Assembly (NCBI GenBank): GCA_951799445.1
Contig: OX637297.1
Coordinates: 6,572,001-6,636,000 of the forward strand
Direction of reading: 5' to 3'
From: Pseudisothecium myosuroides
Taxonomy: Eukaryota; Streptophyta; Bryopsida; Hypnales; Lembophyllaceae
Length of the DNA: 64,000 bases
In this document: positions 3,001-60,653 of the stretch, piece after piece
Position numbering within the stretch: the stretch's first letter is position 1
Layout: each line of letters begins with the position of its first letter
The notes under the pieces: model-generated
Told to the model about the DNA's origin: nothing
The model's input: the letters and a program-made list of their open reading frames with translations, nothing else
Databases searched by the model: none
Position numbers and translations under genes: made by a program

Positions 3001-3150
3001 TGGTTCTTAAAAAATATAGAATAAATTCGGCCCTGTACTTTAATGACCTTCCATTTCACATGTCATGGAAGTTGTACGTGAAGGGTTCACCTAAAAAATG
3101 TACAAGTTGCAAACATTCTCAAAATTTGGAAAAAATTGGGACTTAAACTT
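1..3150. repeat. R1 satellite: about 17-18 tandem copies of a 178-bp unit
   Basis: The same phrases (TGTACTTTAATGACCTT, TTTCAAATGTCATGG, TACGTGAAGGGTTCACC, GTGTACAAGTTGCAAAC, TTTTTAAAAACATAGAATAA) recur every 178 bp from the window's left edge to about 3150. Equivalent minus-strand stops end at 392, 570, 926, 1104, 1282, 1460, 2525 and 2881, all multiples of 178 apart. The array is cut by the window edge. The nucleosome-scale period is typical of plant centromeric or heterochromatic satellites. The short open frames inside are a by-product of the repeat. Confidence 0.95.
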
Positions 3151-11753: not shown

Positions 11754-13181
11754 TCAATTGACAACGTGCGCCAAATTGCCTTCTTTTCTGATGACCCGGT
11801 CCCAATACTGATGAAACGTCATTGCTAATATGTTGTGGGTCAATCGGCTCATCTGGGGAGTTTCCCTTTGCAGTTGAGTGTAGGCCTCGGACCTACATTG
11901 TTTGCTGATCTTCTGAGCTATTTTAGCTATTGCATATTCCTCTGTTTCACGTGATAACTTTGGAATGAGGTGCACATTTGCATCTTTCTCGTGCAAGTAC
12001 GCAAGCTTCGGATCCAACCACCACCTCTCTCTCAGAGTTTTTTCCTTCTCAACAGTAGATGTGAACGTGTATAAGGTTGTAGGGGGGTCACTACCTAAGG
12101 TGGTCATGTCCCAGTCACAAACTCCAATGTAGACGCGAGACTCGTCGTCAGGAAAGTGAAACATGATGTTGTTCGGAGAAAGATCATTGTGGAGATATCC
12201 AGTTACATGCATTGCATGCATAATGTGCGCCAATGCCCATGCAAGCTCCGTCCGCTTCTTCCTAAACCGACGAAGGCGGAAAGCATTAATCACACCTTCT
12301 TCCGTTGTACGTTCATATAGCAGACGAACATGTATGTCATCCGGATAGTAATTATCCAAGTTCAACATCTCACGTAGTGTTCCGCCGTTCCACCAATACG
12401 AGTACCCTTCATTCCTCGTTGTATGCACTGTAGCAAACTGTATCACGCCGGCATGTGGAATCCTCATTGCCATTGATTCGTTCATGTGCTCCAACCTCGC
12501 TAGCTCTGGCCTTGTCATGTGGTGATTGGATCTCTTCGCAGTGAACTCCCAAAATAAAGCTATTGGAGCACATCCTTCAATTCGTACCCTCCGAATTGTG
12601 GCATATCCTCCTCTCATGATCTTTTCATCTTGAAAAATCACCCGTGCCGTGTCTGGAAGTGCTATCAAATAACCTCTGCCACGTTGCACTTCAGCCTTCC
12701 CATCATTGGATCCCCACCATCCCACGGACCCAACTCTATTTCGCTTCTTAGCAAATGGAGAGCATCGCTTGGTAAACAAGTCTGCTCTGAGGATGACTTC
12801 ATCAAATGCGTCATCATCTGGGCGGTGCTCCTTTCCATGTTTTGCTAAGACAACCTTCGCGTTCCACAACGCATCATTTGTCCTGTTATCCAAAAATTTG
12901 AGAAAACCCCTCTTATCCATCTCGTGACTCCATTCCGGAACATTGAGGGCCTCCAACATTCTCTGCTTCATGTCATCTTTGAATTTTTGTGGACACTCCT
13001 CTTGGTACCTAATGTACTTGCTGTCCAAGGATAAAGTGCTTTCGGACTCATAGAATTTGATGGTCAATTTGATGAGAAACTTCTTGCATGCATCTGAGGG
13101 AATTTCCCTCGCCGATTCTATGCTGCTCTGCCCTGTTTGCATCACTTGTTTTCCCTTCGCTGTCTTTTTCGTTCTCGGCAT
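11754..13181 (-). CDS. Divergent protein kinase-like protein (475 aa)
   Basis: Intact intronless frame ending in TGA. The start chosen is ATG 13181 (context ACCATGC); the longer frame reaches only a TTG. Residues 1-170 match no domain I know, with a basic N-terminus (MPRTKKTAKGKQV). The kinase fold is visible after that: glycine loop GGYATIRRVRI near 191, lysine in FTAKRS near 216, a likely helix-C Glu near 231, hinge-like YWWNGGTLREML, catalytic loop YLHNDLSPNNI near 330 (HND for HRD, with Asp and Asn kept) and VCDWDM near 355 (DWD in place of DFG). All key catalytic residues are present, so activity is possible, but the loop variants are unusual. Substrate and pathway are unknown. GC island 2 lies about 260 bp upstream, with TATAAG between. 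Confidence 0.8.
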   Translation of the reverse strand: MPRTKKTAKGKQVMQTGQSSIESAREIPSDACKKFLIKLTIKFYESESTLSLDSKYIRYQEECPQKFKDDMKQRMLEALNVPEWSHEMDKRGFLKFLDNRTNDALWNAKVVLAKHGKEHRPDDDAFDEVILRADLFTKRCSPFAKKRNRVGSVGWWGSNDGKAEVQRGRGYLIALPDTARVIFQDEKIMRGGYATIRRVRIEGCAPIALFWEFTAKRSNHHMTRPELARLEHMNESMAMRIPHAGVIQFATVHTTRNEGYSYWWNGGTLREMLNLDNYYPDDIHVRLLYERTTEEGVINAFRLRRFRKKRTELAWALAHIMHAMHVTGYLHNDLSPNNIMFHFPDDESRVYIGVCDWDMTTLGSDPPTTLYTFTSTVEKEKTLRERWWLDPKLAYLHEKDANVHLIPKLSRETEEYAIAKIAQKISKQCRSEAYTQLQRETPQMSRLTHNILAMTFHQYWDRVIRKEGNLAHVVN

Positions 13182-13420
13182 GGTGATGGTATTTAATTCC
13201 AATTTTTAACATAGATTATGAATTCTGTGGAACCTCAAATTCGAAGTTCATGCTATCACGGACAAACTTGCCAAAAAAATTGGCAATAAGGTGCCCCCAA
13301 ATAATACTTTTGCTTTTCCAAAGAGAGGAGCCAATGGAAGATAAACCACCAAGCTCTCCGCTCCACTTGCACAAGCAAGGGGGTAAGCAAAAGTGAAGGG
13401 CGGTTGGGGCGATTGCCCTT

Positions 13421-17299: not shown

Positions 17300-18190
17300 C
17301 AAAAACAAATTAAAAAAAACATTTGTTGTATTTAGTGGAACTTACATTCAAAGGTCATGATATTGAATGGGGATTATATGAGGATAAAAATGTGGAAGTT
17401 GTAAATATTCTCAACTAAAAGAAGCCTTGTGGGGATTAAATTCTTGCCCTCCTTTTAAAAGCCAAAAGAAAATAAAAACAAAACATTTGTAATTTGTTGT
17501 ATTTAGTGGAACTCAAATCTAAATGTCAAGAATTTAATGGGGATTGAATTCATTGAAGCATTAAAAAAAATGTGCAACTTGTAAATATTCTCAACTAGAA
17601 GAAGCCTTGTGGGGATTAAATTCTTGCCCTCCTTTTAAAAGCCAAAAGAAAATAAAAAAAAAACATTTGTAATTTGTTGTATTTAGTGGAACTCAAATCT
17701 AAATGTCAAGAATTTAATGGGGATTGAAGCATTAAAAAAAATGTGCAACTTGTAAATATTTTCAACTAGAAGAAGCCTTGTGGGGATTAAATTCTTGCCC
17801 TCCTTTTAAAAGCCAAAAACAAATAAAAACAAAACATTTGTAATTTGTTGTATTTAGTGGAACTCAAATCTAAATGTCAAGAATTTAATGGGGATTGAAC
17901 TCATTGAAGCATTAAAAAAAATGTGCAACTTGTAAATATTCTCAACTAGAAGAAGCCTTGTGGGGATAAATTCTTGCCCTCCTTTTAAAAGCCAAAAACA
18001 AATAAAAACAAAACATTTGTAATTTGTTGTATTTAGTGGAACTCAAATCTAAATGTTAAGAATTTAATGGGGATTGAACTCATTGAAGCATTAAAAAAAA
18101 TGTGCAACTTGTAAATATTCTCAACTAGAAGAAGCCTTGTGGGGATTAAATTCTTGCCCTCATTTTAAAAGAAAAAAACAAATAAAAATG
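17300..18190. repeat. R2 array: five tandem copies of about 180 bp
   Basis: GAAGCCTTGTGGGGATTAAA recurs at 17421, 17601, 17772, 17952 and 18131 (periods 180, 171, 180 and 179). Copies are highly similar, so the array is young. The internal order TTGTATTTAGTGGAACT, AAATGTCAAGAATTT, AAAATGTGCAACTTGTAAA parallels R1 (TGTACTTTAATGACCTT, AAATGTCATGGAATTT, AAAGTGTACAAGTTGCAAA) in the same orientation. Confidence 0.9.
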
Positions 18191-23933: not shown

Positions 23934-26900
23934 ATGAGTAAGGACTTCTCCACTTGGTATGGAGTCTCGTCACCAAATAAAGTGCAATGCAAGGCTTGTC
24001 AACTCATCTTCGCCAAAAAACCATGCCGTATGTTGAGCCACCTAGGATATCAAGGCCCATCAGGCTTTCGTGATACCAGGGTCAGCCTTTGTCCTAGGTT
24101 AACAACAGAGGTTCAAGTTCTATTTCTTCGTTGTGAAGGGAAATTTCCACGGCAGCCTGCGGCCATTGACAACGTAGATGGAAACAACACGCCTATAGAC
24201 AGAAATGATTTTTTGAATGGCATGGGTACGACGCGTTCTACGTAGGAGGATTCATGCACGGCACCACAAGAACTTCTAGGTGCGGGTTCAGAAATAAATC
24301 GAACCACTGAAACATACGGTGAACGTGGAACTCCAAGGGCATCAAGTAGTAGGCTGCATAAATAGAGTAGTCTAGCTGATGGCTTTGAAGAAACAACCAA
24401 ACAGAAATTGAATGCTGTATGGGCAAACTTTTTTTACACGGCAAACATACCATTTGCTGTAGCTCAAAATCCAGCCTTCAAAGAAGCAGTGAAGAAAACG
24501 GCAGAGTAGAATCAGCCATACACCCCACCATCGTATCATGATCTACGACACAAATTGCTAGATCAAGCGAAGGCAGAGCTTCAAACAAAGCTCCATAACA
24601 GAATCGAAGATAGCGTTAGGAAATTTGGAGCAACATTGTCTATCGATGGATGGAGTGACGTTTCAAATCGCCCATTAATAAATGCCATGCTAGTCTCAGC
24701 CTCAGGGGAGGAATTCATTGGATCGGTAGATACAAGTGGGGTGGAAAAAAACGCAAAGTATTTGGCGTCTGTGTTGGAGAGATTCATAGAGCACGTGGGT
24801 CCCTCAAATGTGGTACAAGTGACTGCGGATAATGCACCAGTGAATCCAGAAGGGTGGAATTTGGTCTCCGCTAGGTATCCGCACATGTTTTTTCAAGGGT
24901 GTGTGGTGTACGCCTTGAATTTGTTGCTAAAAGATTGGGGGAAGTCAAAATGGATTTCGGATTACGTGGAGAAAGCCCATGATATAGTGAAATTCTTCAA
25001 GAGTAGGCAAATGCCGCTTGCCATATTTCGAAAGCACAAGACAAAGTTGAGCTTGTTGTTGCCGGCAAAAACAAGGTTTGCCTCTAATTTTATTATGATT
25101 CACTATTTGCTGAAGGTTAAACAAGAATTACAACAAAGTGTGGTGGATCCACAGTGGGTCGGGTATGTGCAGAAGCTGAAAGACACCCGAAACACGAAGC
25201 CGCGCTCAGAGTCTCGAGCTGTAACCCAATTCATTTTGAATGATCATTTTTGGAATCGTTTGATGAATATCAAGGAAGTGGTGGCTCCAGTTGTGTATGT
25301 TCTACGTGATTTGGATGCCAAGACACCATGCATGGGCAAGGTCTTGCATCTTATGAGAGGTATACAGAAACATGTCTTCTCTTTAGAGAGGGCGCCTTTT
25401 AAATTGTCTGTAAATCAAGCCGAACAATTGAAGATCTCGTTCTTGAAGCGACACAAAATGGGGGAGACAGATCTACACTATGCAGGAGCACTTCTAAATC
25501 CGTACTTGCTTCATGATAAGGAATTGGCCGACGATACAGAAGCAACGGAGGCATGCAAGCGGGTTATTCAAAGAATATGTAAACCAGGGGAGTACGCGAT
25601 GGTGGTGAAGGAATTTGTAGCCTTTCGACATAGAACCCCTCCGTTCCATAACATGTTGAATCCGGATGAACAAATGTTGTCGGCACATGCTTGGTGGAAT
25701 TTTGAGGGTGCATGCGGAAAGCTCATTGCTCCAATTGCCAAGAGGATATTGGCCCAACCGATATCATCATCTTCATGCGAACGAAATTGGAGTAGCTATT
25801 CGTTTGTTCACAACAAGTCTTGGAACAAGTTGAAGACACAGAGAGCAGCAGATTTGGTGTATGTGTACACCAATTCAAAAGTCTTGGCCGCATCGAAGGT
25901 ACATGATGAGAAGAAGTGGTACAAGGACAACATAGAGTCGGAGGATTCAGAGGGGTTTATCTTGGAAGACGAAGAAGAGGTTGACGATGACGGGCTACAA
26001 ATTAATGACAAAGATGTCATGAACAATGATGTAGAGGACTTTGATGATGGACCGTTTCCTAGTCCAAATCGGAGTAATGAAGATTTTGATGTTGATCACG
26101 GAGACCCTTTCGAGTTTGAATCAGATGGGGACATCGGTTTAAATGAGGACAACAGTGCAGATGATGCAGATGGTGGCATTGGTGGGGATGAGCCCCAAAT
26201 TTCTATAGCACGATTTGTAGATGGAATTGGGTTTCTCAGTAGCCAAAACCTTGTACCAGAAAGGGAAGGTAGGTACGAAGAGGTAGCGGTGGCAAATGAG
26301 ACGACTGTAGCCAATGATGGCACTGGAAAATCGAATGAAGTTCTTGGAACTTCAAAGGCTACATCCGCGGTAGTGGAACAAGTGCAAGAGAGGGACAAAC
26401 AGAATGGCACATCACAGTTTGAGCTCAATGTCTCAATGAACGTGGACAGTGCTTTGGTCCCATGTACTGTGGTATTGCCGAACCATAATAGTGTCGAACC
26501 AAGTACTGCAAATAGTGGAGGAACCAAAGTTCAAGAGAATGTTGATCATGGTTTGATGCATGGGTCTAGGAGCCCAATTCGGGTGAACAACAACAGAGGT
26601 AGGAAGCATGTCAAGGAAGATCCTCAAGTACCACGACATAGTGGTCCTCCGCGTGCAGTGTCAAAAACAGCGGCAACAATCGTGCGTGGTTCGGGAAACT
26701 CTAGCCGCTGGGACCGTATTGTGAAGATGTCAAAAGAAGCACGGCCTCACATCAATTCAAATGAAACAAAGTCACCATCCAACGGTGATGAGGACGAGAC
26801 ATTGGGTGAAATGCTTGTTCGGGAAGCTAGCCGTGCATTGCCACAACGTTCAACCAAATCATTGATCCCTACAGGGCTGTCTATGAATGCAGTGAAGGTA

Positions 26901-27302
26901 AACATTCAAGGAGGGGTCGGAGTACTAAAATTGGAGGCGAAACATTTTATCAAACCCAAAAACAAAAGCGAAATGCAATCGTTTGTAGCTAGCCCAAGAA
27001 AACAACAAAACACAGGTAGAACCCCCCTTGATGCATGTCTTCCTGTTCCACAAAAGAAAATGATGAGTGTTTCCCTCAGGGAAGATAAAATGAAGGCTAT
27101 ATTGAAAGTAAAGAAAGAAAAGAACCAAGGCAAACGAAGGAGATCAAGTACGTTGAATAAAGTTCATAAGGAAGGAGTGACAGTTCTAAATTCTTCATCG
27201 GACGACATGACAGACACATCTGACAATGAAGACATTGGATGGGGAAATGCAGGAGATTGTAGCGGAGCTGAGGTGAAAGGAGATAGTGATTACAGGCCTT
27301 AG
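23934..27302 (+). pseudogene. hAT-superfamily transposase (DUF659 type) with long acidic tail, three in-frame TAGs
   Basis: One frame from ATG 23934 (ATCACCATGA) to TAG 27300, about 1,122 codons, broken only by TAG at 24243, 24363 and 24507. The N-terminus is a BED-like zinc finger (CKAC at 19-22, His 36, Cys 53). DUF659/RNase H-like core: first Asp in SIDGWSD (about 238), second in TADNA (about 299), last Glu in the hAT dimerisation block SSSSCERNWSS (about 616), then DLVYVYTNSKVL. The expected C-x-x-H-x-L-N-L motif reads CVVYALNL, so the His is lost; H-to-Y and A-to-V both fit C-to-T change. Residues about 660-1122 form an acidic then Lys/Ser-rich tail that most hAT proteins lack. Terminal repeats were not identified. 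The three stops make it an inactive or readthrough copy. Confidence 0.85.
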
Positions 27303-27600
27303 CAAATAAGAATTGTAGAGTTTTTGTGATAGGAGACTTGCGCGCTCAGATGCATTGAACACATGAAGAAAATGGATTGGTTGTTCGTAGAACTTTTCAT
27401 TGTAGTACTTATTTGCACAATGATGTAGAAAATGTCATTACAAATTGTGTATTCCAAAACCGTTCAGAGAGAATCCAACAAAGCTTCATTGTGTTTTTCC
27501 TTTCTTTCATGAGGCATCATGTACTGCAAAATGTTTATAGAATGTCAGAAGATATTGTTTGTAATTGTTGTAATACATAGAAAAATGTAAGCATTCATGT
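27303..27600. other. 3' flank of the hAT gene
   Basis: AT-rich and non-coding. It leads into the R3 array. Confidence 0.4.
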
Positions 27601-30250
27601 ATGGAAAGGCATGATTCTTTCAAATGCGAGCCATTAAGGGGCCAAGGCCCATTTTCTTCCCCATTTTTTTTTAATGAAAAGAAGATGAATTTGGAATGGT
27701 AATAAATTAAATGTTGTAGTGAAATCTAAATCCTAGGGGTAATGACATCTTTTTGAAATAAGTGTAAGCTTTCACATATGGAAATGTAAGATTCTTTCGA
27801 ATTTGAGCCATTAAGGGGCCAAGGCCCATTTCCTTCCCCCTTTTTTTTTTAATTGAAAGGAAGGTGAATTTGGAATGGTAATAAACTGAATATTGTAGTG
27901 AAATCTAAATCCTAGGGATGAAGACATTTTTTTCCAAAAATCATTCATTAACATATGGAAACACATGATTCTTTCAAATGTGGGCCATGAAGGGGCCAAG
28001 GCCCATTTTCTTCCCCATTTTTTTTATTGAGAAGAAGATGAATTTGGAATGGTAAATAAATTGAATGTTTTAGTGAAATCTAAATCTTAGAAGTAATGAC
28101 ATCTTTTTTTCAAAAATGTAAGCCTTCACATATGGAAATGCATGATTCTTTTAAATGTGAGTCATGAAGGGGCCAAGGCCCATTTCCTTCCCTTTTTGTT
28201 AAATTGAAAAGAAGATGAGTTTGGAATGGTAATTAATTGAATATTATAGTGAAATCTAAATCCTAGGGGTAATGACACGTTTTTTTCCTAATATGATTCA
28301 TTAACGTATGGAAATGCATGATTCTTTGATTTCTTTCAAATGTGGGCCAATAAGGGGCCAAGGCCCATTTCCTTCCCCATTTTTTTTAATTGAAAAGAAG
28401 ATGAATTTGGAATGGTAATGAATTGAATATTGTAGTGAAATCTAAATCCTAGGGGTAATGATATGTTATTGAAATAAGTGTAAGCTTTCACTTATGGAAA
28501 TGTTAGATTCTTTCAAATGTGAGTCATGAAGGGGCCAAGGCCCATTTCCTTCCCTTTTTTTTTAATTGAAAAGAAGATGAATTTGGAATGGTAATTAATT
28601 GAATATTATAGTGAAATCTAAATCCTAGGGGTAATGACACATTTTTTTCCTAATATGATTCATTAACGTATGGAAATGCATGATTCTTTGATTTCTTTCA
28701 AATGTGGGCCATTAAGGGACCAAGGCCCATTTTCTTCCCCATTTTTTTTAATTGAAAAGAAGATGAATTTAGAATGGTAATAAATTAAATGTTGTAGTGA
28801 AATCTAAATCCTAAGTATAATTACATCTTTTTAAAATAAATGTAAGTCTTCACATATGGAAACGAACGACATTTTCAAGTTCCAGCCATGAAGGGTTTAG
28901 GGTCATTTCCTTCTTAATTTTTTTTAATTGAAAGGAAGGTGAATTTGGAATGGTAATAAATTGAATATTGTAGTGAAATCTAAATCCTAGGGATGAAGAC
29001 ATTTTTTTTTCCAAAAATCATTCATTAACGTATGGAAACACATGATTCTTTCAAATGTGGGCCATGAAGGGACCAAGGCCCACTTTCTTCCCCATTTTTT
29101 TTATTGAGAAGAAGATGAATTTGGAAAGGTAATAAATTGAATATTTTAGTGAAATCTAAATCCTACGTGTAATTACATGTTCTTGAAATAAGTGTAAGCC
29201 TTCACGTATGGAAATGCAGGATTTCTTTCAAATGTGAGCCATTAAGGGGCCAAGGCCCATTTCCTTCCCTATTTTTTTTAATTGAAAGGAAGGTGAATTT
29301 GGAATGGTAATAAATTGAATATCATAGTGAAATCTAAATCCTAGGGATGAAGACATTTTTTTTCCAAAAATCATTCATTAACGTATGGAAACACATGATT
29401 CTTTCAAATGTGGGCCATGAAGGGGCCAAGGCCCATTTTCTTCCCCATTTTTTTTATTGAGAAGAAGATGAATTTGGAAAGGTAATAAATTGAATATTTT
29501 AGTGAAATCTAAATCCTACGTGTAATTACATGTTCTTGAAATAAGTGTAAGCCTTCACGTGTAGAAATGCAGGATTCCTTTCAAATGTGAGCCATTAAGG
29601 GGCCAAGGCCCATTTCCTTCCCTATTTTTTTTAATTGAAAAGAAGATGAATTTGGAATGGTAATATATTGAATATTGTAGTGAAATCTAAGTCTTAGAAG
29701 TAAGGACATCTTTTTTTCAAAAATGTAAGCCTTCACATATGGAAATGCATGATTCTTTCAAATGTGGGCCATTTCCTTGGGTTTTTTTAATGCAATGGGT
29801 CTCCCATTTGTTCAAAAATAAATAAAAAAAATGTGGTCCATTAAAGGACCGGGCCCATTTTAGTCCCCAATTTTTTAAATTCACAAGAAGATGAATTTCT
29901 AATGGTGACAAATTGAATATTTTAGTGAAATCTAAAACTTCAGTGTAATTACATCTTCTTAAAATAAATGTAAGCCTTCACGTATGAAAATGAATGACAT
30001 GTATAAGTTTCGGCCATTAAGGGCGAATGCCCATTTCATTCCCCATTGTCTTTAATTCACAAGAAGATGCACTTTGAATAGTAACCAATTGAATATTTTA
30101 CTGGAATCTAAATCATAAGTATGTCCACATATTTCTTTCCAAAAATGTAAGTCTCTGCGTAATGAAAATGCATGACGTATTCAAATTTGGGCTATTAATG
30201 GGTCAAGGCCTACTTTCTTCTCCATTTCTTTTAACTCTCAACAACATGTC
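27600..30250. repeat. R3 array: about 15 tandem copies of about 177 bp
   Basis: GGGGCCAAGGCCCATTT recurs at about 27641, 27818, 27995, 28172, 28357, 28534, 28719, then with variants to about 30201. The usual period is 177 bp; two 185-bp units contain an extra GATTTCTTT. Copies diverge toward the right end (29.76-30.25 kb). Reverse-complemented, the unit follows the R1 order, including CATACGTGAAGGCTTACAC against TACGTGAAGGGTTCACC. Confidence 0.95.
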
Positions 30251-36824: not shown

Positions 36825-37860
36825 TGTGGGAGTACGGAAACTCAAGAAGTAAAGAAATAGATTAGAATAGGACTAGAATAGAGTAAAAAAAAATTGATTT
36901 TTGGTAAGACATAGAGAATTGGATCCAATTACGGATAACTTGAGAATAGTCAGTTTCTATATTGCTAGAACTGTTACGGCTGGTTTATTACTAGAAGTAA
37001 AACGGATTCGGAATCCGGAAATGCACCGAATGGATGGAACCTACGGTCTAGACTTTCAGTCTAGGAAACTAAGGTACTGTTACGGGAACGGTGTCCTACC
37101 CGTTCTCCACCGGGAACGGTCAGCTGTTTGTCGGGTACTTAAGTCCACCGCCACTCCATTCTTCTCCCTTTTTTGTAGGACTCTGCACACGCATAGTTGA
37201 GAGAAAGAGCGGTGAGTTAGGGATCGTGCCAGAGAGAGAAAGGTGAGGTTGGTGCCATTTGCGCCGGATTAGTGTTCTTTATGTTGGTAAACCATGGCGG
37301 AAAGTAGCGATCCAAAAACCCATAGACATACGGTCATGGCCCAAATAGTTTGTCCGGCTATTCCTACCAACCCGACCATCCGAAAGCAGTTAGAGGAGGA
37401 TCTAATGGGTATAGGGTGTGTCGGATTGATATGGAGGCCGTGGAACGTCAAGGACCAGGAGATGATTGAGGAGCTCATCTCAGGGATTCCAAATCAGTAC
37501 AAGTTGACGGTTAGGGGTCGACCCGTAGCTTGGACCGAGGATGTTTAGGCAAAGGTGTATGAGTTTAAGAAGTCCGGATCTGGATTAGCCTCCCAGACGG
37601 ATAAATATGCAAGCGGAAAGTTCCAGAGTCCGGCCAATTCAAAGGACGGGTACACCATTAGTAAATGTAAGAACGATAGGCATAAACGGGTGTTAAAATT
37701 CCTGATTCCACTTCTATATCCGGAAAAGCCTACCTGGGTTACGATCACGGTGGCTAACACCATCTTTGGAGCTATGGAAGATAGGTTCGTACATTGGAGT
37801 AGGGTTATTGCGGGTGTGGTGATGAAATTGGTGGAACATGTGTCGAGGGGTCACTAGAAG
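36825..37860 (+). mobile_element. X element 1, 5' end plus truncated gene
   Basis: Starts with TGTGGGAGTACGG, matching the 5' terminus of X element 3 (TGTGGGAGCAC). After a leader of about 470 bp comes the X gene at 37294. Similarity to other X proteins stops near 37857, so the 3' part is missing or diverged. Confidence 0.6.
37294..37857 (+). pseudogene. Family X protein, N-terminal fragment
   Basis: ATG 37294 (ACCATGGCG) opens a frame broken by TAG at 37546 and ending with TAG at 37855. It matches the first about 190 residues of the intact X protein at 42.9-44.7 kb: RKQLEEDLMGIGCVGL, RPWNVKDQEMIEELI, GKFQSPANSKDGYTISKC, LIPLLYPEKPTWVTITVANT and IFGAMEDR. Function unknown. Confidence 0.7.
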
Positions 37861-39174: not shown

Positions 39175-40213
39175 TGTCGTATAGTGTTGCAGCACAGAGT
39201 AAGAGAATTCTTTGTTATACTCCCAAAAACCACTCTAAAGCATAACAAAATGACTCTAAAGATCGAACCCACGAGATTCTGTGAAGTGTCTAGCTCTATT
39301 TCCAACTTAAGCTCAGTCAGTATCCAAATTCCACTTTCCGGTCCTACTTCTAAAATCGGAAACACCAAAACACAGAAAACTACGACCAGACCTCTCTTTA
39401 TCGCTTCCGGTCTGTCCAGCTATCCGGTCCTGTAAAAACTACCACAATCCAGGATCTTCTAACTTCCAATCCCGGTACTGCTCTAGACCGATCCTTTCCG
39501 GTCCACGCACACGTACTCTTACTCCAATCTGGTTTGATTTAGCCTTTGTTTCACCATCAGAGGGTTCGCTGCTTGCTTTTGAAAGTGGCAAGTCCGCCAC
39601 TCCTTCCGTGACTTATAGTGGCTGAAGACCCACTTCTCTATTCTTCTACTTTCTACACTAACCTGGATCCGGTTTGATCCTTCACAACCACCCAGACAAC
39701 AATCCGGATTGTAGGTCACACAAAGACCCCCCATACGATCCTCTCATATTACAACAACCTTGACGCCAAGTTCTCTCCGTGCGAAGTTAGGCGGTTACAA
39801 GTGAACCCGTCCGTTCCAACATCAGCTAAAGTTCTTCCGTTTACCAACTAGGGTAGCAAGACCTCACAGGAGATCGAACACTCAACTGGATTTCCCACCC
39901 AGGAGCTCTAGCGCGACTAAGGAATCCCTCCCTATCCGCCTAGCCTAACAACAGTTTTCTCACCCGAAATCCTAAACTATAGAAGTGCTAAGGAACTGAA
40001 AACCCACTCCCAACTCTTTACTATCCACTCACTTGCACACAAGAGCAAGAACAGTAACACCAAGGGGAGAAATCTCTCCCAAAACGACTTGCGCCCTCCT
40101 AACTCCTCACCATACAACTCTACCAAACTCGGGAAAGATGCACAACAAGAAACAAATAAAATACGCAAGAAGATTCAGGTGAAAAGACTCCCAGTCTCCT
40201 TCGCAGAGACTGA

Positions 40214-40221
40214 CTTATATA
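40214..40221 (-). promoter_or_regulatory. TATA-like motif in the 3' tail of X element 2
   Basis: The minus strand reads TTTTAAAAGTGTATATAAGTC about 170 bp beyond the stop codon. A strong TATA here, 3' of the gene, would be expected of an LTR or of a second promoter. Confidence 0.4.
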
Positions 40222-40385
40222 CACTTTTAAAACACAAAGTCAACAAAAAGGGCCCCCAAAGTCTGCGCGGAACTTTTGGTCCCATCCGATCCGGTCAGAC
40301 CGGATAGACATCCAATCCGAACCAGACAGACCGGATCAACATCCGGTCCGGTCCATCCTAACATATTTACAAAACAAAATCCTAC

Positions 40386-41504
40386 CTAATCTACCATACC
40401 CTGATCTACTCCTTGATCTACTCCTGGGTCCATATCCTGGTCCAAAACTTGGTTAATACTTTGATCCGGACCTTGATCTGCACCCTGATCTGGGGCTTGA
40501 TCCATACTTTGATCCTGACCGTGGTTCAATGTAGGACTCTTGGGCTCTTCCGCTCCCAGCTGGTTGAAAACTTCCGCCAGGTCCCGGTTCCGCTCCCCGT
40601 GTTCATGTTCAGGGACATCAGACCGCGGCGACGAATCTAAGTTAATGGGTGCCGTGAGTTTCTGTCCACTCTTCTTTGACTGGGGAGTCCGATCCCTTCC
40701 TTCCCTTCGGATGCCACCAACCGGAAAAGATTTCGGTAGCAAGAGGTCCGACAGATGGATCTCTCTAGAGAACACGGATCCAGTCAGCTTTTGACTACTC
40801 ACCTCCATCCGGTCTGCCGCATCTCGTGCTTCCACCATCACCACTTCTACCTTCTCAGAGAAGTCAGTCAAAATCCGAACCAATCGAGTTCCGGATAGCT
40901 TCTTATCCCTGAGCACCCCCTCGTCAAATAACTTCGCCTTGGCGGCGGCCTCACCAGTCTCCCCAAAAGTGGCCTTCACCTGCTCCGCTACCTTCCGTGT
41001 TACTTCCGCCATCTCCCTAGTGGCGGTTACGTCCTCTTTGAAGGCGAAAAGTTCTGCCTTCAACAAATCGACTTCCTCCTGAAGTCGACGAATCTCAGCT
41101 TCTTGCCTCCGGATCTCAACCGGGCTGGAGATGAATTCTGCCACCACTGCCGGAAGTTGGCTATTCACTGGTGCATTCACCAATTCTCCAATCTGGGTCA
41201 GAATCCTTTTCTTTACCTCCCAATCCGCTCGCACGCCGCAGAGGACGGTGATCAACTGGTTGAATGGATCATTCGGATCCGATTCATCCAAACCCGGTCC
41301 TTCAACTTCCGGTCCTTTCCCAGGATTGGAAGTCTCACCCGGGGGTGTTGGTGTTCTTCTTCGGTGATGAGGCGTCGTCTTCTGCCGCTTGTTCAGTGGC
41401 TTGTGTAGCTCCTCCTCTTCTTCTTCTTCATTGGAACCGTTTCCGTCCTCCTGCTCGGCATCCGTTTCCGATTCCCCATATTTCAGGAGCACCTCTTGAG
41501 TCTT
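40386..41504 (-). pseudogene. X element 2 gene, C-terminal part
   Basis: Open frame after the insertion site: KTQEVLLKYGESETDAEQE, an acidic NEEEEEEEL run, a Pro-rich basic stretch, a coiled-coil region (EIRRQEAEIRRLQEEVDLL), the conserved AKLFDEGVLRDKKLSGTRLV block and a C-terminus of D-Q-x repeats (DQGADQGPDQSINQ). It ends at TAG 40386-40388. The upstream residues MLCCVTT lie in the inserted element and do not belong to it. It joins in frame with 45380-46041. Confidence 0.75.
41500..41504. other. Target-site duplication, left copy
   Basis: GTCTT, identical to 45380-45384, directly abutting the element's TGTCGT end. Confidence 0.8.
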
Positions 41505-44500
41505 TGTCGTAACACAGCAAAGCACAAATCCCTCCCTTAGGTGCTAAAGTAGTGTAAAACACCTTAGATGACTCGTGTATCGTTCCCACAGGATTTTAAC
41601 TCGTAGTTTCCTCAAAATTCCCGGAACAGGATCCGGAACACAAAACCAAAGACAAACAGAATCCGGAAATAAGATGTAGAACTAGACTTCCCGATCTGTA
41701 TTTGTTTAACTTTCTCTTGTATCAACCTAGCTCTCAAACATATTACCAATCAACAAGGAATAGATCGGCAATCCTTCACAATAGTAGTAGTAACTTAGTA
41801 TCCGGCTTAACTAAATGCAGAACCGGAAAGAGTGTCTTGATCCTGTACCTTTCCCGGATCCGGATCTAGCAAGCAATGCGAACAAGGGTATAGTTTAACC
41901 TCTACATCAGAGGGTTCCGCTCTTGGACTTAAGGAAGGACACGTAAATCCTACCCTCCACTGGTTTAAAGTGGCTGAAGTTCCACTAAAAGAGAAATAAC
42001 AAAGAAAAACAAAGAAAACAAAGAATACCGGAAGGCAAGTATTTCCTCACAGCTGATCCGGGAAGTTACTCCAGACAAGAAGGTCACTCAGGAAACCCCT
42101 ACTATCCCACTTACTACAATGACAGACTCTGCCAAAACATGGTTCCCAGAGCAGAGCTAGTACCAACTAACTAAAGGATCCCAACTACTTTCCAGTTCCT
42201 CTCTTCCGGTAACAGCAAGACCTCATCAAATGTCGGTTAGCATTTGTACTTCAACCCAAAGAACTCACCCAACCTAGGAACGGCTATCTCACTCAGAAGA
42301 CCCTCAAGGAAAATCAGCAGATGAAACTACCCCTTAGTATGCCAATTCTTCGTAAACCAACTCCTAATACTCCCAGAACCGGATCCAGACAGAATCCGGG
42401 GGTCATCTATTCTTCTCCAACACCTGCAAACCAGCTACCCGCACTACCAATGCTTAACACATTGATGGCGTACCAACACAGACTGAGACTTTTCAGACCA
42501 GTACTTGCGAAGTGGAAATCTGAAATCAATTTACAGAGTACTGAAAAATATACATAAGAATACCTGGGGCATCCAACCAAAGTCAGCCGCCTAAATACCA
42601 AACACCCAGAGACCCCTAAAGGCCCCTGGGAATCAAAAGGAAAGGACCAGAGAATGACACCTGTCATTCCCCTTATCCTTCCCACGTTGACTTTCCTACC
42701 ACAACCCGCCGATCCGCAAAATGTGGATCTCAGATCCTAAAAACCCGGAAAGTGAAGTCCAGGTTCATCCAACTGAAAAGCAGCTAACTGACTGCTTCCT
42801 ACCTATCAAAAACTTGAGTTTTAATACTAACCATGCTAGGGTCAACTCAAGGAACTACCTAACTACTTCTTCTGCTCCTTCGGAGAAGGTGCCTCCAACT
42901 TGATAGCTCCTTTCCGAGCTGGCTGTTTCCTGCTGGGCGATGGTTTGGGTGGCTTGGGATACTTCCCCTTTGTTGCTGAGGCTGTCTTACCCTTGAACTG
43001 CGAAGGCGAGATGGTCTCCATGTCTGTATCCTCTTCCGATTCAGAGCCCGGATGTGACTCGGACTGGGAACCGGATCCCGACTGGCTGCCCTCCTGTGCT
43101 GAGTTACTTGGCGACTCGCCTTCCTCTGAATGATGACTAGCAGAAGTCGCCTCCCTTCCTCTTTTTGGTGTTGTCTTCTTCTTCGTGGTGCTGGGCATTG
43201 TTGGAGATGGCTTCGAATCCTTGCTCGGGGGTGTCCCAAGTTCTGATCCGGACTTCCGGGCCTTCTCCTTGGATCCGGATCCATGCCCTGATCCTTCTCC
43301 TCCTTCTGACTTCCGCTTAGAAGTTTCCTTTGCGGGTGTCTTCTCCTCCTTGGGCTTACTCTTCGGCTTTACATTCGCTGGGGGCGACATTGGCACCTTC
43401 TTGGAACCTTTGAACAACCCCGATTCTTGAAGTACATCCCGGATCTCGAACATGAATTTCTCCGTGACATCAAAATACTCAGCCAGAACTTCTACTGACT
43501 TGACTGCTACCTCTGACCCGGCCTTACGGATCCCCTCATTGAATAATTTGGCCTTGTTAATCACATTTCCCGAATTTGACACAAAAGCCCTAACTCTACG
43601 GAGGGTCTCCTCAGCCTCTGGGGAAAGTTTCTTCCCCTTCTTACTCTCCTCAAGTTCCCGGGTTAGTTCCTGGTTCTGCTCAGTCAACTCCTTAACCCGG
43701 GATTCCCACTTCCGGTTCTCTCTATCCCGGAGTAAATCCTCAATCCTCTTAGCGAGTTCAGATGCGTTTACTCCCCCTAGCAGCCCACATGCACTCTTGA
43801 CTGCTTTTCTCTCCACATCTAACTCCTCTCTGAGCCTCTCCAGATCCTCAATGATTCTACCTAGCAGTTTATCCTGGGGATCTTTCTCATCCGGGGATTC
43901 CTCACTCTTATTCCCCTTCTTCTTCTCTGAGGCTGGAATCTTTTCTGGGGTTTTCTCTTCCTCTTCTGAGGATTCTCTCTCGGATCCCTCGTCATTCTCT
44001 TCCTCTACCTCTTCTTCTCCCTTTGGAGTGATGTTCAAATTCATAAACGTGGTGGCAGCCTTATAGGCAGTTCTCTCTGGGCCTCTCAAAGTTTCTAAAT
44101 ACTCATAGAGGTGAAATATAAACGGCCCTATTGCTGTCGCCTTGGTATTTCCTAAGGATGAGACCATCTTGGTCACTCTCTCCTTAACAATACCAGCCCA
44201 GAAAACCTTTCTATCTCCACTCAATGCCCCAAATATTGTGTTGGCCCAGGTTAATGTAATCCTGGTCGGCCGTTCCGGGTACAGGATTGGGAGCAGGAAC
44301 TCTAACACTCTCTTCTCCCTCTGATCCTTGCAATCCGCTACGGTGTACCCATCATTGCCATGAGGGGCTTCAGAGAACTTACCCTCATGAAACTTGAGCG
44401 TCCGGGACGCCATCCCCTCTCCCGGTCTTGGAAAATCGTATACCCGTTTCCAGGTATCGACAGTCCAACTGCTGGGAAGAGCCCGGGAAGTCTTCTCCCA

Positions 44501-45379
44501 TTCGTTTGACTGATCCCTCATTAACTCCCGGATCATGTCCTCGTTTCTCAGCTTCCAGGGTCGTTGCAGAAAGTTCACACACCCCATCTGCGCGAGGTCT
44601 TCCTCCAACTGTTTCCGGTAACCCGGATCTTGCGGGATGATTGGAACAACGTTCCTGAACTTCAAGGTAACAGCTCTGCTCCCTTCGCCCTTCACCATTG
44701 CACTCAAACTCCCACAAGATACCCTCAAAAACAATCCTCACATAGTCCCTCACTAAAGCAAAACTGCAGAGTTCTCTTTCCCAGTCCTATCTCTCTCTCG
44801 GGTCCGGGAAACTCGGAGCTCTTTCTCTCTTTGCAACTTGACTCTACACACAACGACTCCAAGCGCTCCAAGGTCTCTACAATCCTCCAACTGAGAAGTG
44901 AGAGAAGAAAATCCGACCCCTGGGTCTTCTCTCCCATCCAGCCGCTTTCCAACCGTTAGGATTTCCCGTTAGGGTTTTCCGTTCCCGCTGAAATCCCGGA
45001 GGATTGTGACCGTTAAACGGTCTTCCTTATCTTCCAGTAGAGCCGTTGGATCGCAGAATTGCCCTAACGGCTTCTTCTGGGATCTCCGGTATCCTCTGGT
45101 ATCCTCCGGTACATGTTTATACCCGGCCCCGGTATATTGAACAAGTCCAGATTCACCCACCGGTTCCGTATCCGGTTCCGGATATCTCGATAAATCAGGG
45201 AATCTAATTTCCCCTTCTTAACCTATTTATCTATTTACTATTATCCTATAATGGAAAAATCTTAATTTTGGTAAAACTCCTATCTAAGCCTTGTAAAAAG
45301 CTAAAAATTTTACCATTTCTCACTCCTTCTTTTAAATTCTTAGCTAACTAACCTTATCCTTACATTTTGTGCTCCCACA
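41505..45379 (-). mobile_element. X element 3: complete 3,875-bp element with 5-bp target duplication
   Basis: Inserted in the X gene of element 2. Plus strand: GTCTT (41500-41504), then TGTCGTAACACAG ... GTGCTCCCACA, then GTCTT (45380-45384). Removing the element and one GTCTT restores the reading frame. The element starts TG and ends CA on either strand and is oriented by its gene on the minus strand. I found no long terminal repeat copies; the first 20 bases of one end do not recur at the other. It contains one gene (42863-44698), a leader of about 680 bp with a TATAAAC (about 45116) and a tail of about 1.36 kb. Recent insertion is likely because the frame is intact. Confidence 0.85.
42863..44698 (-). 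CDS. Family X protein, intact (611 aa)
   Basis: Intronless open frame from ATG 44698 (GCAATGG) to TAG 42863. Residues about 10-205 are the conserved family X domain: NVVPIIPQDPGYRKQLEEDL, RPWKLRNEDMIREL, SSWTVDTWKRVYDF, MASRTLKFHEGKF, NDGYTVADCKDQREKRVLEF, YPERPTRITLTWANTIFGAL and KATAIGPFIFHLYEYLETL. Then follow an acidic region, a long predicted coiled coil (about 280-400), the AKLFNEGIRKAGSEVAVK block and a Ser/Lys/Pro-rich basic tail. There are no reverse transcriptase, integrase or transposase motifs. As the sole product of a mobile element it may be a capsid-like (Gag-analogous) or DNA-binding protein; this is inference. It is the only copy in the window without internal stops. Confidence 0.75.
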   Translation of the reverse strand: MVKGEGSRAVTLKFRNVVPIIPQDPGYRKQLEEDLAQMGCVNFLQRPWKLRNEDMIRELMRDQSNEWEKTSRALPSSWTVDTWKRVYDFPRPGEGMASRTLKFHEGKFSEAPHGNDGYTVADCKDQREKRVLEFLLPILYPERPTRITLTWANTIFGALSGDRKVFWAGIVKERVTKMVSSLGNTKATAIGPFIFHLYEYLETLRGPERTAYKAATTFMNLNITPKGEEEVEEENDEGSERESSEEEEKTPEKIPASEKKKGNKSEESPDEKDPQDKLLGRIIEDLERLREELDVERKAVKSACGLLGGVNASELAKRIEDLLRDRENRKWESRVKELTEQNQELTRELEESKKGKKLSPEAEETLRRVRAFVSNSGNVINKAKLFNEGIRKAGSEVAVKSVEVLAEYFDVTEKFMFEIRDVLQESGLFKGSKKVPMSPPANVKPKSKPKEEKTPAKETSKRKSEGGEGSGHGSGSKEKARKSGSELGTPPSKDSKPSPTMPSTTKKKTTPKRGREATSASHHSEEGESPSNSAQEGSQSGSGSQSESHPGSESEEDTDMETISPSQFKGKTASATKGKYPKPPKPSPSRKQPARKGAIKLEAPSPKEQKK

Positions 45380-45384
45380 GTCTT
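45380..45384. other. Target-site duplication, right copy
   Basis: GTCTT, directly following the element's CCCACA end. Confidence 0.8.
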
Positions 45385-46041
45385 CCACTCCTTCTCCTCC
45401 GTGTCAGTGAGAAGCTGGTGGTGTTTGTAAAGCTAGAAGATGTAGGGACTCACAAGTGTGGCCCTACTCCTTCCAATCTTTGGAACCAGATGGCCTACCA
45501 GATCGGAAAAGATCTAGGCCCACTCCACTTTCCGTTCCCCGCTCACGGCTCCAAAAATCAAGTTACCGAGGGCTATCGTCACCCTCGTCGGTTTCTCCGG
45601 GTGGATGATCAGAACCAAAAACTAGAGAAGGTTGCGATGCCAGTTGTCCAAACAATCCAAGACCGCATGCCCGTCCTTCGAGTCTACGGTACTCCGAAAC
45701 TTCCCCCGGATGTATTCGTCCTTCCGGCTGGCCATCTCTAAGCCTCCCACCCGGAAGTTGTATACTGACCTCCACATCTCTTTTGTCCAACTGCTCGGAA
45801 TTCTGCAGATGGTATTGTCGAACTGATTCGACAATTTTCCTAACAACTCTCTCACCATCCGCTCCTCTCTAAATCCCCAGGGTTTGTCTAACAACCCTTG
45901 ACAACCCATCATGGCGAGATCCTCCATGAGATTGGCCTGCTCCTCCTCCGTGGAGGGAATGACCGGACTCACCTTCCGGAGCTTGACTACTATTGCGGAG
46001 GAGTTGGTCAGTCCTGCTCTGCACTTGCAGAGCTGAGGCAT
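45380..46041 (-). pseudogene. X element 2 gene, N-terminal part
   Basis: ATG 46041 is the likely start. The frame reads SPVIPSTEEEQANLMEDLAM, SSWTKEMWRSVYNF and GKFRSTVDSKDGHAVLDC, then continues through TAG at 45622, 45514 and 45433: IIHPEKPTRVTIALGNLIF, SGERKVEWA, SPYIF and TEEKEWKT. It is cut at 45380 by element 3. Its continuation is at 41504. Confidence 0.75.
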
Positions 46042-46323
46042 GGACACGTGCTGTGCTAACCAGATTCTCCCCGAGACTACCTTTCTCTCTCCTAGCCGCA
46101 CGTCCCGTTCCTCACCTTCACTCTTCCGATCTCAACCGGAATATCACTAACCCTGCAGCACACACTAACGCATTGCGCAGGCCTGTTCACTAACACACTA
46201 ACACGCTCACAGTCACACTCACAACACAGGAAAACAAAGCGCTGGGAAAGAGAGCAAAATACACGCAGAGAAACGCCTCCAGCAAACAGAGTTTGAAAAA
46301 GAGTAGCAACTAGACTGGTCAGC

Positions 46324-46333
46324 CTATTTATAG
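46324..46333 (-). promoter_or_regulatory. TATA box of X element 2
   Basis: The minus strand reads CATACTATAAATAGGCTG, a near-consensus plant TATA box about 285 bp upstream of ATG 46041. Confidence 0.6.
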
Positions 46334-46559
46334 TATGATATGTCATCATGACCAAATCCGGTCTTGACCTAATCCGTTCCAACTCAGATCCGTTCCAATT
46401 CAGATCCGAGTTAGATTCCGATCGAACCCGGATCGTCCACTACTTCCGTTCCATAGCTAATTCTTAGTTTTTCATTATCTCCTGCTCGAATCCGGATCCT
46501 TGTTTACGGTTTCCGTTCCAAGTTTTAGGTAACTTAGAAAAACCAAAAATTTACACTGC

Positions 46560-48000
46560 GACATATAGACAATGTGCCTAAACCCATGTTTTTTAGACAT
46601 AACAAGTATGTTTTTAAGAACTACGCAACTTTAGCACATAAACTGAATGGAGGGAGAACACCTAATCATATTAAAAGAGCATGTGCGCAACAATGGAACA
46701 TAAAACTAGGTGAACAACACTACAATAACTTCAGCATGGATTTCTAAAACTTACATAATATAAAAGACGACACTTCTCCAACTTTGATAATGTTGTTTCA
46801 GATGCCGAAAGGTTGCTGCCATTATTGGAGGTTATCATTTCTTAGGACATGTCCAGCTTGTTGTACTCTGCAAAATGGCCTGCGTTACAATTGTTTGGTT
46901 TAGGACACCGTATGCTGCATCAGAAGTGTTTAAATCCAAAGTATGTACAAAATCCAAGCTAGTCTTTTCCCTCTTCATTTCTATCATCTTTCCTTTAAAA
47001 CTAAACATAAGAATTCACATTCTACATTTCTAACTTTACCATTCAAGATTGAGCATGCAGTTCATGTACCCAATACAAGCACAATCTAGTGTCGTTGTAA
47101 TACAAAAAAAATTTCTTTTCTTTACATATGGCTTGCACTTTGTGCCCTCAATTTTTTTGTAAAGTTCAAGAGGACTTTGTCCTTTCTGCATGTTGTCTGC
47201 ATTTTTCACGTCTGAAGGGTGAGTTCAAGATGGCATTTGTATTCACGTCATCCATCAAGTGATGAATAAACAAAGTATAACCTCATGCAATGATGTAGTA
47301 ATTATAACAAAAGCTCTTTCTAATCAGCAAAAAAACATCACAATCTTTGCCGTCTTTCCAAAGCAACATCATGACCGAATTCCTATACTATACTTTCTAG
47401 AACTACCATGTTCCTACATCTTTAGGTGGTCTTCTTTGCATATGATAATAGAACATGCAAACATGAGGCGCAGGAAAAGACATGCTTGCACTCTTCTCAT
47501 TGACGGACCTTCATAGGCACGATGACTGACATGTGGTCCTTCCATAGCCATTGAGCATAAAGTGCTTTTACAACCTCTGAATTTGTAATTGCACTATAAA
47601 TGTCACCATCTTGTCATATGCCAATTTTCCAATATCCCCAGTCCTTGCGTGCATCATATTCTTGGCTCTATGATGAATACTATGACAATTGCAACCAACC
47701 TTTTATTTCACTCCACATATAGTAATGGACACTAAAATTTCGACCGCTACAAATGAGCATTAATGAAAGCAGACTGTCCATTGCAAGTTTGGCGTACAAT
47801 TTCCTAGTCAAGTTAGATGTCAAAGTTACCTTGCAAGTGCAATAATGCAGTCCACATGAGCCGACTTCCTGCCATTGTACATTGACCACATCATTTGCAC
47901 ATTGTCAATGACATGCCAATTTCAGATGCTCGTTTGCACATTCCCTAAATGTACCATTGCCACTCCCGTTGCTAAAAAATACCCTACATGAGAGTCTCCG
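46560..48000. other. No recognisable gene
   Basis: AT-rich with frequent ACATTG/CAATGT words and short frames only. Confidence 0.4.
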
Positions 48001-59286: not shown

Positions 59287-60653
59287 GTGGGTAAGTACAG
59301 CCCTCTCAATTCGTACTTGTTCCACCTCTATCATCAAAAGGAGGTTCTGAATAGCCAAGAGGTGATAGCGTACAAAACCGGAGCCACAATCCTACGGTAT
59401 GGCCTTATAGGGGAGGTTGAGCGGGAGTCAGAAGAGGAAGAACAACAAGAGGAACTAGTTGATAAACGAGATAAGCAAAGGAAGTCAACCGATCCGTCTG
59501 CAAGAGGAAAGGTGCCAGCACTGGAAATCGGAGAGCCTAGCTAGACTCCGGTAGCGGAAGAACCTTCGGAGTTCTTTGATGCTGGAATCCAATGGGTGCG
59601 GCATGCTCGGCAGTTGCACGACAACATGGCAGATTTTGTAATCGAAATCAGTGAAGAATTGAAGGTGAAGCCAGAGAAGATTTTGGAGGAAATCAAGCAA
59701 CAACCAGGTGTTGAGGTGTTGTACAAAAAGGATGAGTGGATCCACAACTTGGACAAGGAGCGGGATGACCTCCAATCCCGGGTGAATTGGACAGAAGGAG
59801 ATGCGGTAGTAGCAAGGTAGAAGGAGATGGAAGCTCTCTAAGTCGTCCAAAATTTGATGACATTGGTCACGCAGCCATCGAATCTTGTGGTCAGATCCAA
59901 ACTCTTTAACAACCGGCTAATAAGTGAAGGCCACCTATCCGAATCAAAGGTAGTAACAATCCTTGTCGACTTTCAAGCCTGGATGGATGCGGTGTTGAAG
60001 GAAATGGGCCAACTACTGGGACACCTTGATCCGGATAAGGTCATGGACTTCTCGCAGTTTTCGGAAGTCTCCTCCATATTCCTAAAGACTCCGATTAAGC
60101 AGGGTTTGGGGTCCCTTCTGCAGCCACTTACGGGTCCATCCTCGAGTCAAGCACGGATACCACGGACGAGTGCAAAGGATGTACGCAAACTTGAGAGGGA
60201 GACAAGTGTAAAGTCGGTTTTGGTACAGCAGAAAGTTTTCGTCCCACCAATTGTTCCATCAACCCAAATGACTAGGACAGGGTCATTCAAGTTACTCGGA
60301 CAAGAAGTCCGCAACGATCTCATTGATCGGATTGGGGCCTTGTCGAATCCGGCCCAGACCCATCTGGAAGGCTTCCCTCACATGCAGCAACCTTCGCCTA
60401 AACGGGACAGCACAACGATAGATTTTGAAGAGGCGTCGCCCGAGAAGGAGCTGGATGAGAGATGATTGAAGAATCCGAGAAAGAGGAGTACGAGACCAAA
60501 TCCGAGACGAAATCTGATGATGACTTGCCTCCACCAATTATGCGCAAGATTCAAACTTGGGTCACAGTCAAGGCGACTCCAATGAAGTTTGCTAGCAAGC
60601 CACCTACAGATAAGGGCGGTAGCAGTTTGAAGAAGCTGCGGAAGGGGAAGTAA
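59287..60653 (+). pseudogene. Family X protein, C-terminal fragment (X copy 5)
   Basis: The frame joins the family at PLNSYLFHLYHQKEVLNSQE and AYKTGATILRYG (aligning with FHLYEYLETL..AYKAATTF of the intact protein), then an acidic EEEEQQEEL run, a coiled coil and VRSKLFNNRLISEGHLSESK (the AKLFNEG block). TAG at 59542 and 59818 and TAA near 59838 interrupt it; it ends in TGA at 60463. A last piece (60462-60653) lies in another frame. The 5' half is absent. Confidence 0.65.

Follow-up and report, generated by a model that had tools for sequence, protein, structure and literature searches.

Solo LTRs are ordinary components of genomes, and a protein gene located inside an LTR, and thus carried by both LTRs of an element as well as by its solo LTRs, is familiar from the LTR ORF (sag) of mouse mammary tumour virus. 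This is an animal retrovirus, and its likeness to the element described below, here called family A, concerns the layout only; among the matches listed in the literature on LTR ORFs and on moss and plant elements it was the only similar layout, and no ORF inside a plant LTR was found there. Family A shares with the solo LTRs of plant Ty3/gypsy elements the TG...CA ends, the 5-bp duplication, the single LTR and the numerical excess over complete elements, and differs from them in that its LTR measures 3.9 kb and carries a conserved ORF for ~600 amino acids. As far as the account in PMC6317226 goes, most duplications in plants (93.4%) measure 5 bp and LTRs of up to ~5 kb are known among the non-chromoviruses. 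The rice elements Retrosat2, RIRE3 and RIRE8 are described as having LTRs of ~3 kb or more and an extra ORF0 of unknown function, Retrosat2 being represented by 429 solo LTRs vis-à-vis 162 complete elements (PMC3485330). Compared by description, the likeness to family A lies in the long LTRs, the extra ORF and, for Retrosat2, the solo LTRs, whereas that description locates the rice ORF0 upstream of the gag-pol ORF and does not place it inside the LTR, within which the family A ORF is found (PMC3485330). The additional ORFs of Retand, Grande and RIRE2 are presented as antisense and located between pol and the 3′ LTR, the sense ORFs in this position including env-like proteins, and regulatory or accessory roles have been suggested for those of Retand and Grande (PMC11963269; PMC7264820). 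Family A resembles these elements in having a conserved protein other than gag-pol near its 3′ end, but its ORF is in the sense orientation and within the LTR (PMC11963269; PMC7264820); the extra ORFs of plant retrotransposons covered by these accounts belong to the internal region (PMC11963269; PMC7264820; PMC3485330).

The locus lies in a window of 64,000 nucleotides from the moss Pseudisothecium myosuroides (assembly GCA_951799445.1, contig OX637297.1, positions 6,572,001 to 6,636,000 of the forward strand), to which all coordinates without a locus or contig label refer. Whereas a preliminary description of this DNA had presented the inserted segment as a complete mobile element, the insert is almost certainly the solo LTR of an LTR retrotransposon, probably of the Ty3/gypsy type, nested in the solo LTR of a related family, B; the parent element, with gag, an integrase piece, a primer-binding site and a polypurine tract, resides elsewhere in the genome. 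The features are the following:

36825..37842, plus strand: third relative, truncated, with a TGTGGGAG end and an ORF fragment having one in-frame stop
39180..39184, no strand: left copy of the family B target-site duplication, TATAG
39185..46563, minus strand: solo LTR of family B, ~3.5 kb when the insert is subtracted, into which the solo LTR of family A is inserted
40386..41504, minus strand: family B LTR ORF, 3′ portion
41500..41504, no strand: target-site duplication copy 1, GTCTT
41505..45379, minus strand: solo LTR of family A, 5′ TGTGGGAGCACAAAATG ... GTGTTACGACA 3′ when read on the minus strand
41505..42079, minus strand: last ~575 bp of the family A LTR, delimited by subfamily comparison and read, by inference, as R-U5
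42863..44698, minus strand: LTR ORF of 611 amino acids plus stop (ATG at 44698), with a conserved N-terminal region followed by a predicted coiled coil
45376..46002, minus strand: family B LTR ORF, 5′ portion, containing in-frame stops and sharing 41.6% identity with the inserted ORF over residues 7-215 of the latter
45380..45384, no strand: target-site duplication copy 2, GTCTT
46564..46568, no strand: right copy of the family B target-site duplication, TATAG

The insert (41505-45379, 3875 bp) reads TGTCGTAACACA...TGTGCTCCCACA on the plus strand and is bordered on both sides by GTCTT, so that the segment with TG...CA ends and a GTCTT duplication is present in the sequence as first described. 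Fusion of the flanks minus one GTCTT yields, as had been claimed, a frame that is open through the joint, and the fused flanks match five uninterrupted relatives in one piece across the joint with 77-82% identity (L021, L028, L030, L032 and L036), the sixth locus matched, L001, being the window copy itself, in two pieces; the alignment with L028, the only one inspected letter by letter, is ungapped at the joint. The statement that the segment has no terminal repeats likewise holds, in that comparison within the 3875 bp gave no direct repeats, as is to be expected of a sequence that is itself one terminal repeat. Of the further copies invoked to support the ends, the TGTGGGAG sequence at 36825 does resemble the 5′ end of a third, truncated relative, whose ORF fragment shares ~46% identity with the inserted ORF over residues 11-182 of the latter; on the other hand, the ACGACA at 39175 (minus strand) is coincidental, the outer relative ending at 39185 with TATAG directly beyond.

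The interrupted element belongs to a numerous family. The 18-base 3′ end of family B occurs 814 times genome-wide with ≤2 mismatches (reversed control, 6), and two further family B copies, with the duplications TCAGA and AGAAT, themselves split family A LTRs. When the lists of gag matches and of 3′ ends were compared, a gag match was found 305-332 bp past the family B 3′ end at 7 of the 100 places listed, and the primer-binding site stands 10 nt past the LTR in both gag-linked junctions read. None of nine family B 3′ ends, at other loci and in the window, is followed by its own primer-binding site, which is what solo LTRs should show; in the window, one solo LTR is thus lodged within another. 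At L006:4818 (plus strand) a sequence resembling a primer-binding site follows a different LTR-like end (ACGACA TTTT TGGCGCCGCTG), which suggests a further related family into which the L006 copy inserted.

Elsewhere in the window, an ORF resembling a kinase/APH (11757-13205, minus strand; PF01636, E=4.1e-5) recurs by eye at L024:7514-8776 (plus strand) and may therefore belong to a repeated element. A hAT-type transposase with DUF659 and a hAT dimerisation domain occupies 24510-27299 (plus strand), and at 1-3126, 17386-18188 and 27582-29772 there are satellite-like tandem arrays whose periods are close to 178, 180 and 176 bp.

The search for family A covered 388 Mb in 222 contigs. The insert protein gave at least 73 genome matches (71 of 2975 first-look candidates scored), the 22-base 5′ end 158 and the 24-base 3′ end 133 occurrences with ≤2 mismatches (100 places listed for each end), the reversed-pattern control being 0 for either end. 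Among the 54 copies with both ends read, window copy included, 50 are bordered by a 5-bp duplication with ≤1 mismatch: 25 of the 27 full-length copies of a first set, to which the window copy belongs, and 25 of 27 further end pairs, lying 1.7 to 20.2 kb apart (3.8 to 4.0 kb in 19 of the 27). The duplications are exact in 40 copies, carry one mismatch in 10 and two or more in 4, and those of the split copies L011/L057, L027/L120 and L021/L113, checked separately, match too. These data, with ends that are common genome-wide, bear out the earlier view that the segment was inserted into a relative by an integrase-type mechanism and has exact ends, confirm the existence of many further copies with 5-bp duplications and show that the GTCTT pair is not due to chance. 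Two copies without a duplication of their own (L037 and C2:651604) are both followed by a primer-binding site, as expected of 5′ LTRs; two others of the 54 (L015 and C1:10539191-10546566) lack a duplication with no explanation. In the window copy and in 24 more of the 27 full-length copies, a single LTR with no internal region stands between the duplication copies.

Two candidates for larger units were discarded. The L039/L040 tandem pair is not one full element, each copy having its own duplication, and a supposed longer autonomous class of ~7.3 kb was rejected on the evidence of L021, the one such span read, in part: here a family B LTR is nested in a family A LTR and splits it. L036 likewise contains a nested family B LTR. 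At C10:783161-803370 family A ends 20.2 kb apart are accompanied by matching GCTAC duplications and delimit a further complete or heavily nested element. The first 40 bases of the 3′ flank are identical at C49:408535 and C217:105617 (L074 and L075), so that both contigs may carry copies of the same region.

The LTR was said to encode a single unrecognised protein and this description stands: no Pfam family scored above its cut-off for the 611-residue sequence, and Pfam analysis of this protein with 48 relatives gave weak matches only, many of them to coiled-coil families, Transposase_28 being absent from the 25 families shown of the 62 matched. PHROGs returned one match (E=0.0005), located in the coiled-coil part, to a family whose function is unknown. 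A protein collection yielded 96 relatives at E up to 0.01 (8000 candidates scored), no named family appeared among the best 120 of 193 proteins of a profile search, and contig scans found no relatives in viral and prokaryote contigs. The protein consists in outline of a conserved N-terminal region (~220 residues) followed by a predicted coiled coil and a low-confidence charged tail; the predicted structure is weak (mean pLDDT 52.8, pTM 0.36) and a PDB fold search produced 16 matches up to E=10, none of them at E≤0.001. The LTR ORFs of family B share 32-34% identity with the inserted family A protein; the LTRs of both families encode homologous proteins of ~600 amino acids. A weak relative of the LTR protein is also seen at 59293-60465 (plus strand; tblastn E=0.007 for 59293-59394), where an ORF at 59842-60465 resembles it by eye.

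Could this ORF be a passenger, captured once and now decaying? In-frame stops, found in 11 of the 27 full family A copies, would fit such a history; the other 16 have none, stops having been counted in codons aligned to L001, with insertions relative to L001 not counted. Against it, the family A ORF displays a dN/dS of ~0.22 (mean pS 0.105, pN 0.024), calculated from the 241 of 351 pairs with pS <0.3, which are not independent and leave out 110 pairs with pS of 0.3 or more. The ORF is under purifying selection, and the constraint is probably stronger than this value indicates, since neutral decay after insertion raises the ratio. The homologous ORF in the family B LTR and the relatives in the protein collection likewise speak against a decaying passenger, which is accordingly an improbable explanation.

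A selected ORF within the LTR raises the question of its position relative to the LTR regions. When two family A subfamilies are compared in 50-bp blocks, identity is 0.78-0.98 over the last ~575 bp of the LTR, vis-à-vis 0.46-0.86 for the ORF, and the sense ORF sits upstream of this conserved 3′ end; if the latter is read as R-U5, the ORF is probably located in U3. Recombination between subfamilies could be another source of the conserved LTR end. A TATAAA at position 259 of the LTR is not conserved in the second subfamily, and no promoter could be assigned.

The retrotransposon anatomy emerges from the sequences adjoining the LTRs. Four of the 80 3′-end readings, which represent 79 distinct places (L039 and L040 share one), continue alike with a short spacer followed by TGGCGCCGCTGCCGGGGA or a close variant, a primer-binding site resembling the tRNA-Asp type. 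This junction between LTR and primer-binding site occurs 11 times genome-wide with ≤3 mismatches (control, 0), and in nine cases a gag match lies 323-335 bp downstream (150 of 336 gag candidates scored), the junctions at C11:15314963 and C11:14379800 being without gag among the matches listed. The gag of L029 scores above the cut-off (PF03732, E=1.4e-9), while the integrase piece (PF00665, E=2.4e-5) falls below the curated cut-off and two zinc knuckles of the internal region (PF13917 and PF00098) are both below theirs. At the other end, the polypurine tract GAAAATGGGGTGA immediately precedes TGTGGGAG and is identical at L030 and L112 (C5:28186822); in L030 the C-terminal region of the integrase ends just ahead of the polypurine tract and the LTR. 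The parent element is known here from its LTRs, primer-binding site, gag, integrase piece and polypurine tract, parts that, like the LTR status of the insert and the duplications, are observed in the genome. Family A LTRs are concentrated on contig C11 (16.9 of 388 Mb, ~4% of the genome), which holds 24 of the 100 listed family A 3′ ends (133 in total) and seven of the 11 junctions; complete family A elements seem over-represented there, as would be expected where recombination is rare.

One two-LTR element can be pieced together at C5:28170039-28220342, where LTRs in the same orientation lie inside one duplication, with CGCCC on both outer sides. Its 5′ LTR extends from 28220342 to 28216500 with CGCCC outside (L037) and is followed by the primer-binding site, a gag with stops and the polypurine tract at 28186822 (L112), and the final LTR end at 28170039 is again followed by CGCCC (L036). 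The element was read outside the intervals 28175540-28186801 and 28186843-28212499, at its ends, in the first 4 kb of the interior and in part of the 3′ LTR; its span of ~50 kb is assumed to reflect nested insertions between the parts, and a different gag at C5:28197419 and the family B LTR of L036 lie inside it. A second candidate on C2, pairing L029 with L030, could not be established as a single element, its outer flanks being different (CTTTT and ACCGC).

These findings weigh on the remaining explanations of the insert. A self-standing 3.9-kb unit, devoid of terminal repeats and mobilised by an integrase supplied in trans, would account for the individual duplications around 50 of the 54 copies and for the lack of internal direct repeats; it accounts neither for the junctions joining LTR, primer-binding site and gag, nor for the polypurine tract ahead of the 5′ end, nor for the two-LTR element within one duplication on C5, and is very improbable. 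In TR-GAG elements and LARDs, two LTRs enclose an interior that holds only gag or is non-coding. Such a non-autonomous gag-only or large-derivative element might be suspected from a 3.9-kb sequence that encodes a protein and no pol, but the 3.9 kb are one LTR with no repeats inside, and Pfam shows no gag match for the protein they encode, whereas the true gag is separate, in the internal region; the probability of this reading is minimal. Equally negligible is a cut-and-paste DNA transposon of, e.g., the Ginger type: integrase-like DNA transposons can share the TG...CA ends and short duplications, but by eye the terminal inverted repeats extend here over only 3 bp in family A and 7 bp in family B, Pfam gave no transposase match, and sibling copies are surrounded by retrotransposon anatomy, up to the two-LTR element on C5.

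On the view that a Ty3/gypsy-type element left the insert behind as its solo LTR, the parent would have integrated by reverse transcription and integrase action, generating the 5-bp duplication, and the target would have been the LTR of a family B element, now itself a solo LTR. Recombination between the two LTRs, an inferred step, would then have excised the gag-pol interior, so that a single LTR remained between the duplication copies. With a sense ORF for a protein of ~600 residues carried by the LTRs of both families, this ORF would be, in the full element, the last gene of the genomic RNA, copied into both LTRs. By analogy with the extra ORFs of Retand and Grande, the LTR protein may have an accessory role in replication.

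The supposed new class of mobile element is thereby removed, the insert being a solo LTR, and the smaller novelty that remains is that in at least two related families the LTRs contain a gene for a protein, with selection shown in one. A more far-reaching and rather doubtful proposition is that a Ty3/gypsy lineage moved a selected gene for ~600 amino acids into U3 and that its solo LTRs are expressed units. If this were true, each integration would deliver two gene copies, LTR-LTR recombination, which normally disarms an element, would leave an intact gene, and solo LTRs would supply the protein in trans to the surviving elements or influence silencing or recombination, the more than 100 LTR ends of family A and the several hundred of family B marking potential gene copies. 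Annotation pipelines could list such LTR ORFs as orphan multicopy genes, and solo LTRs of this kind, beyond being regulatory scars, may be gene copies.
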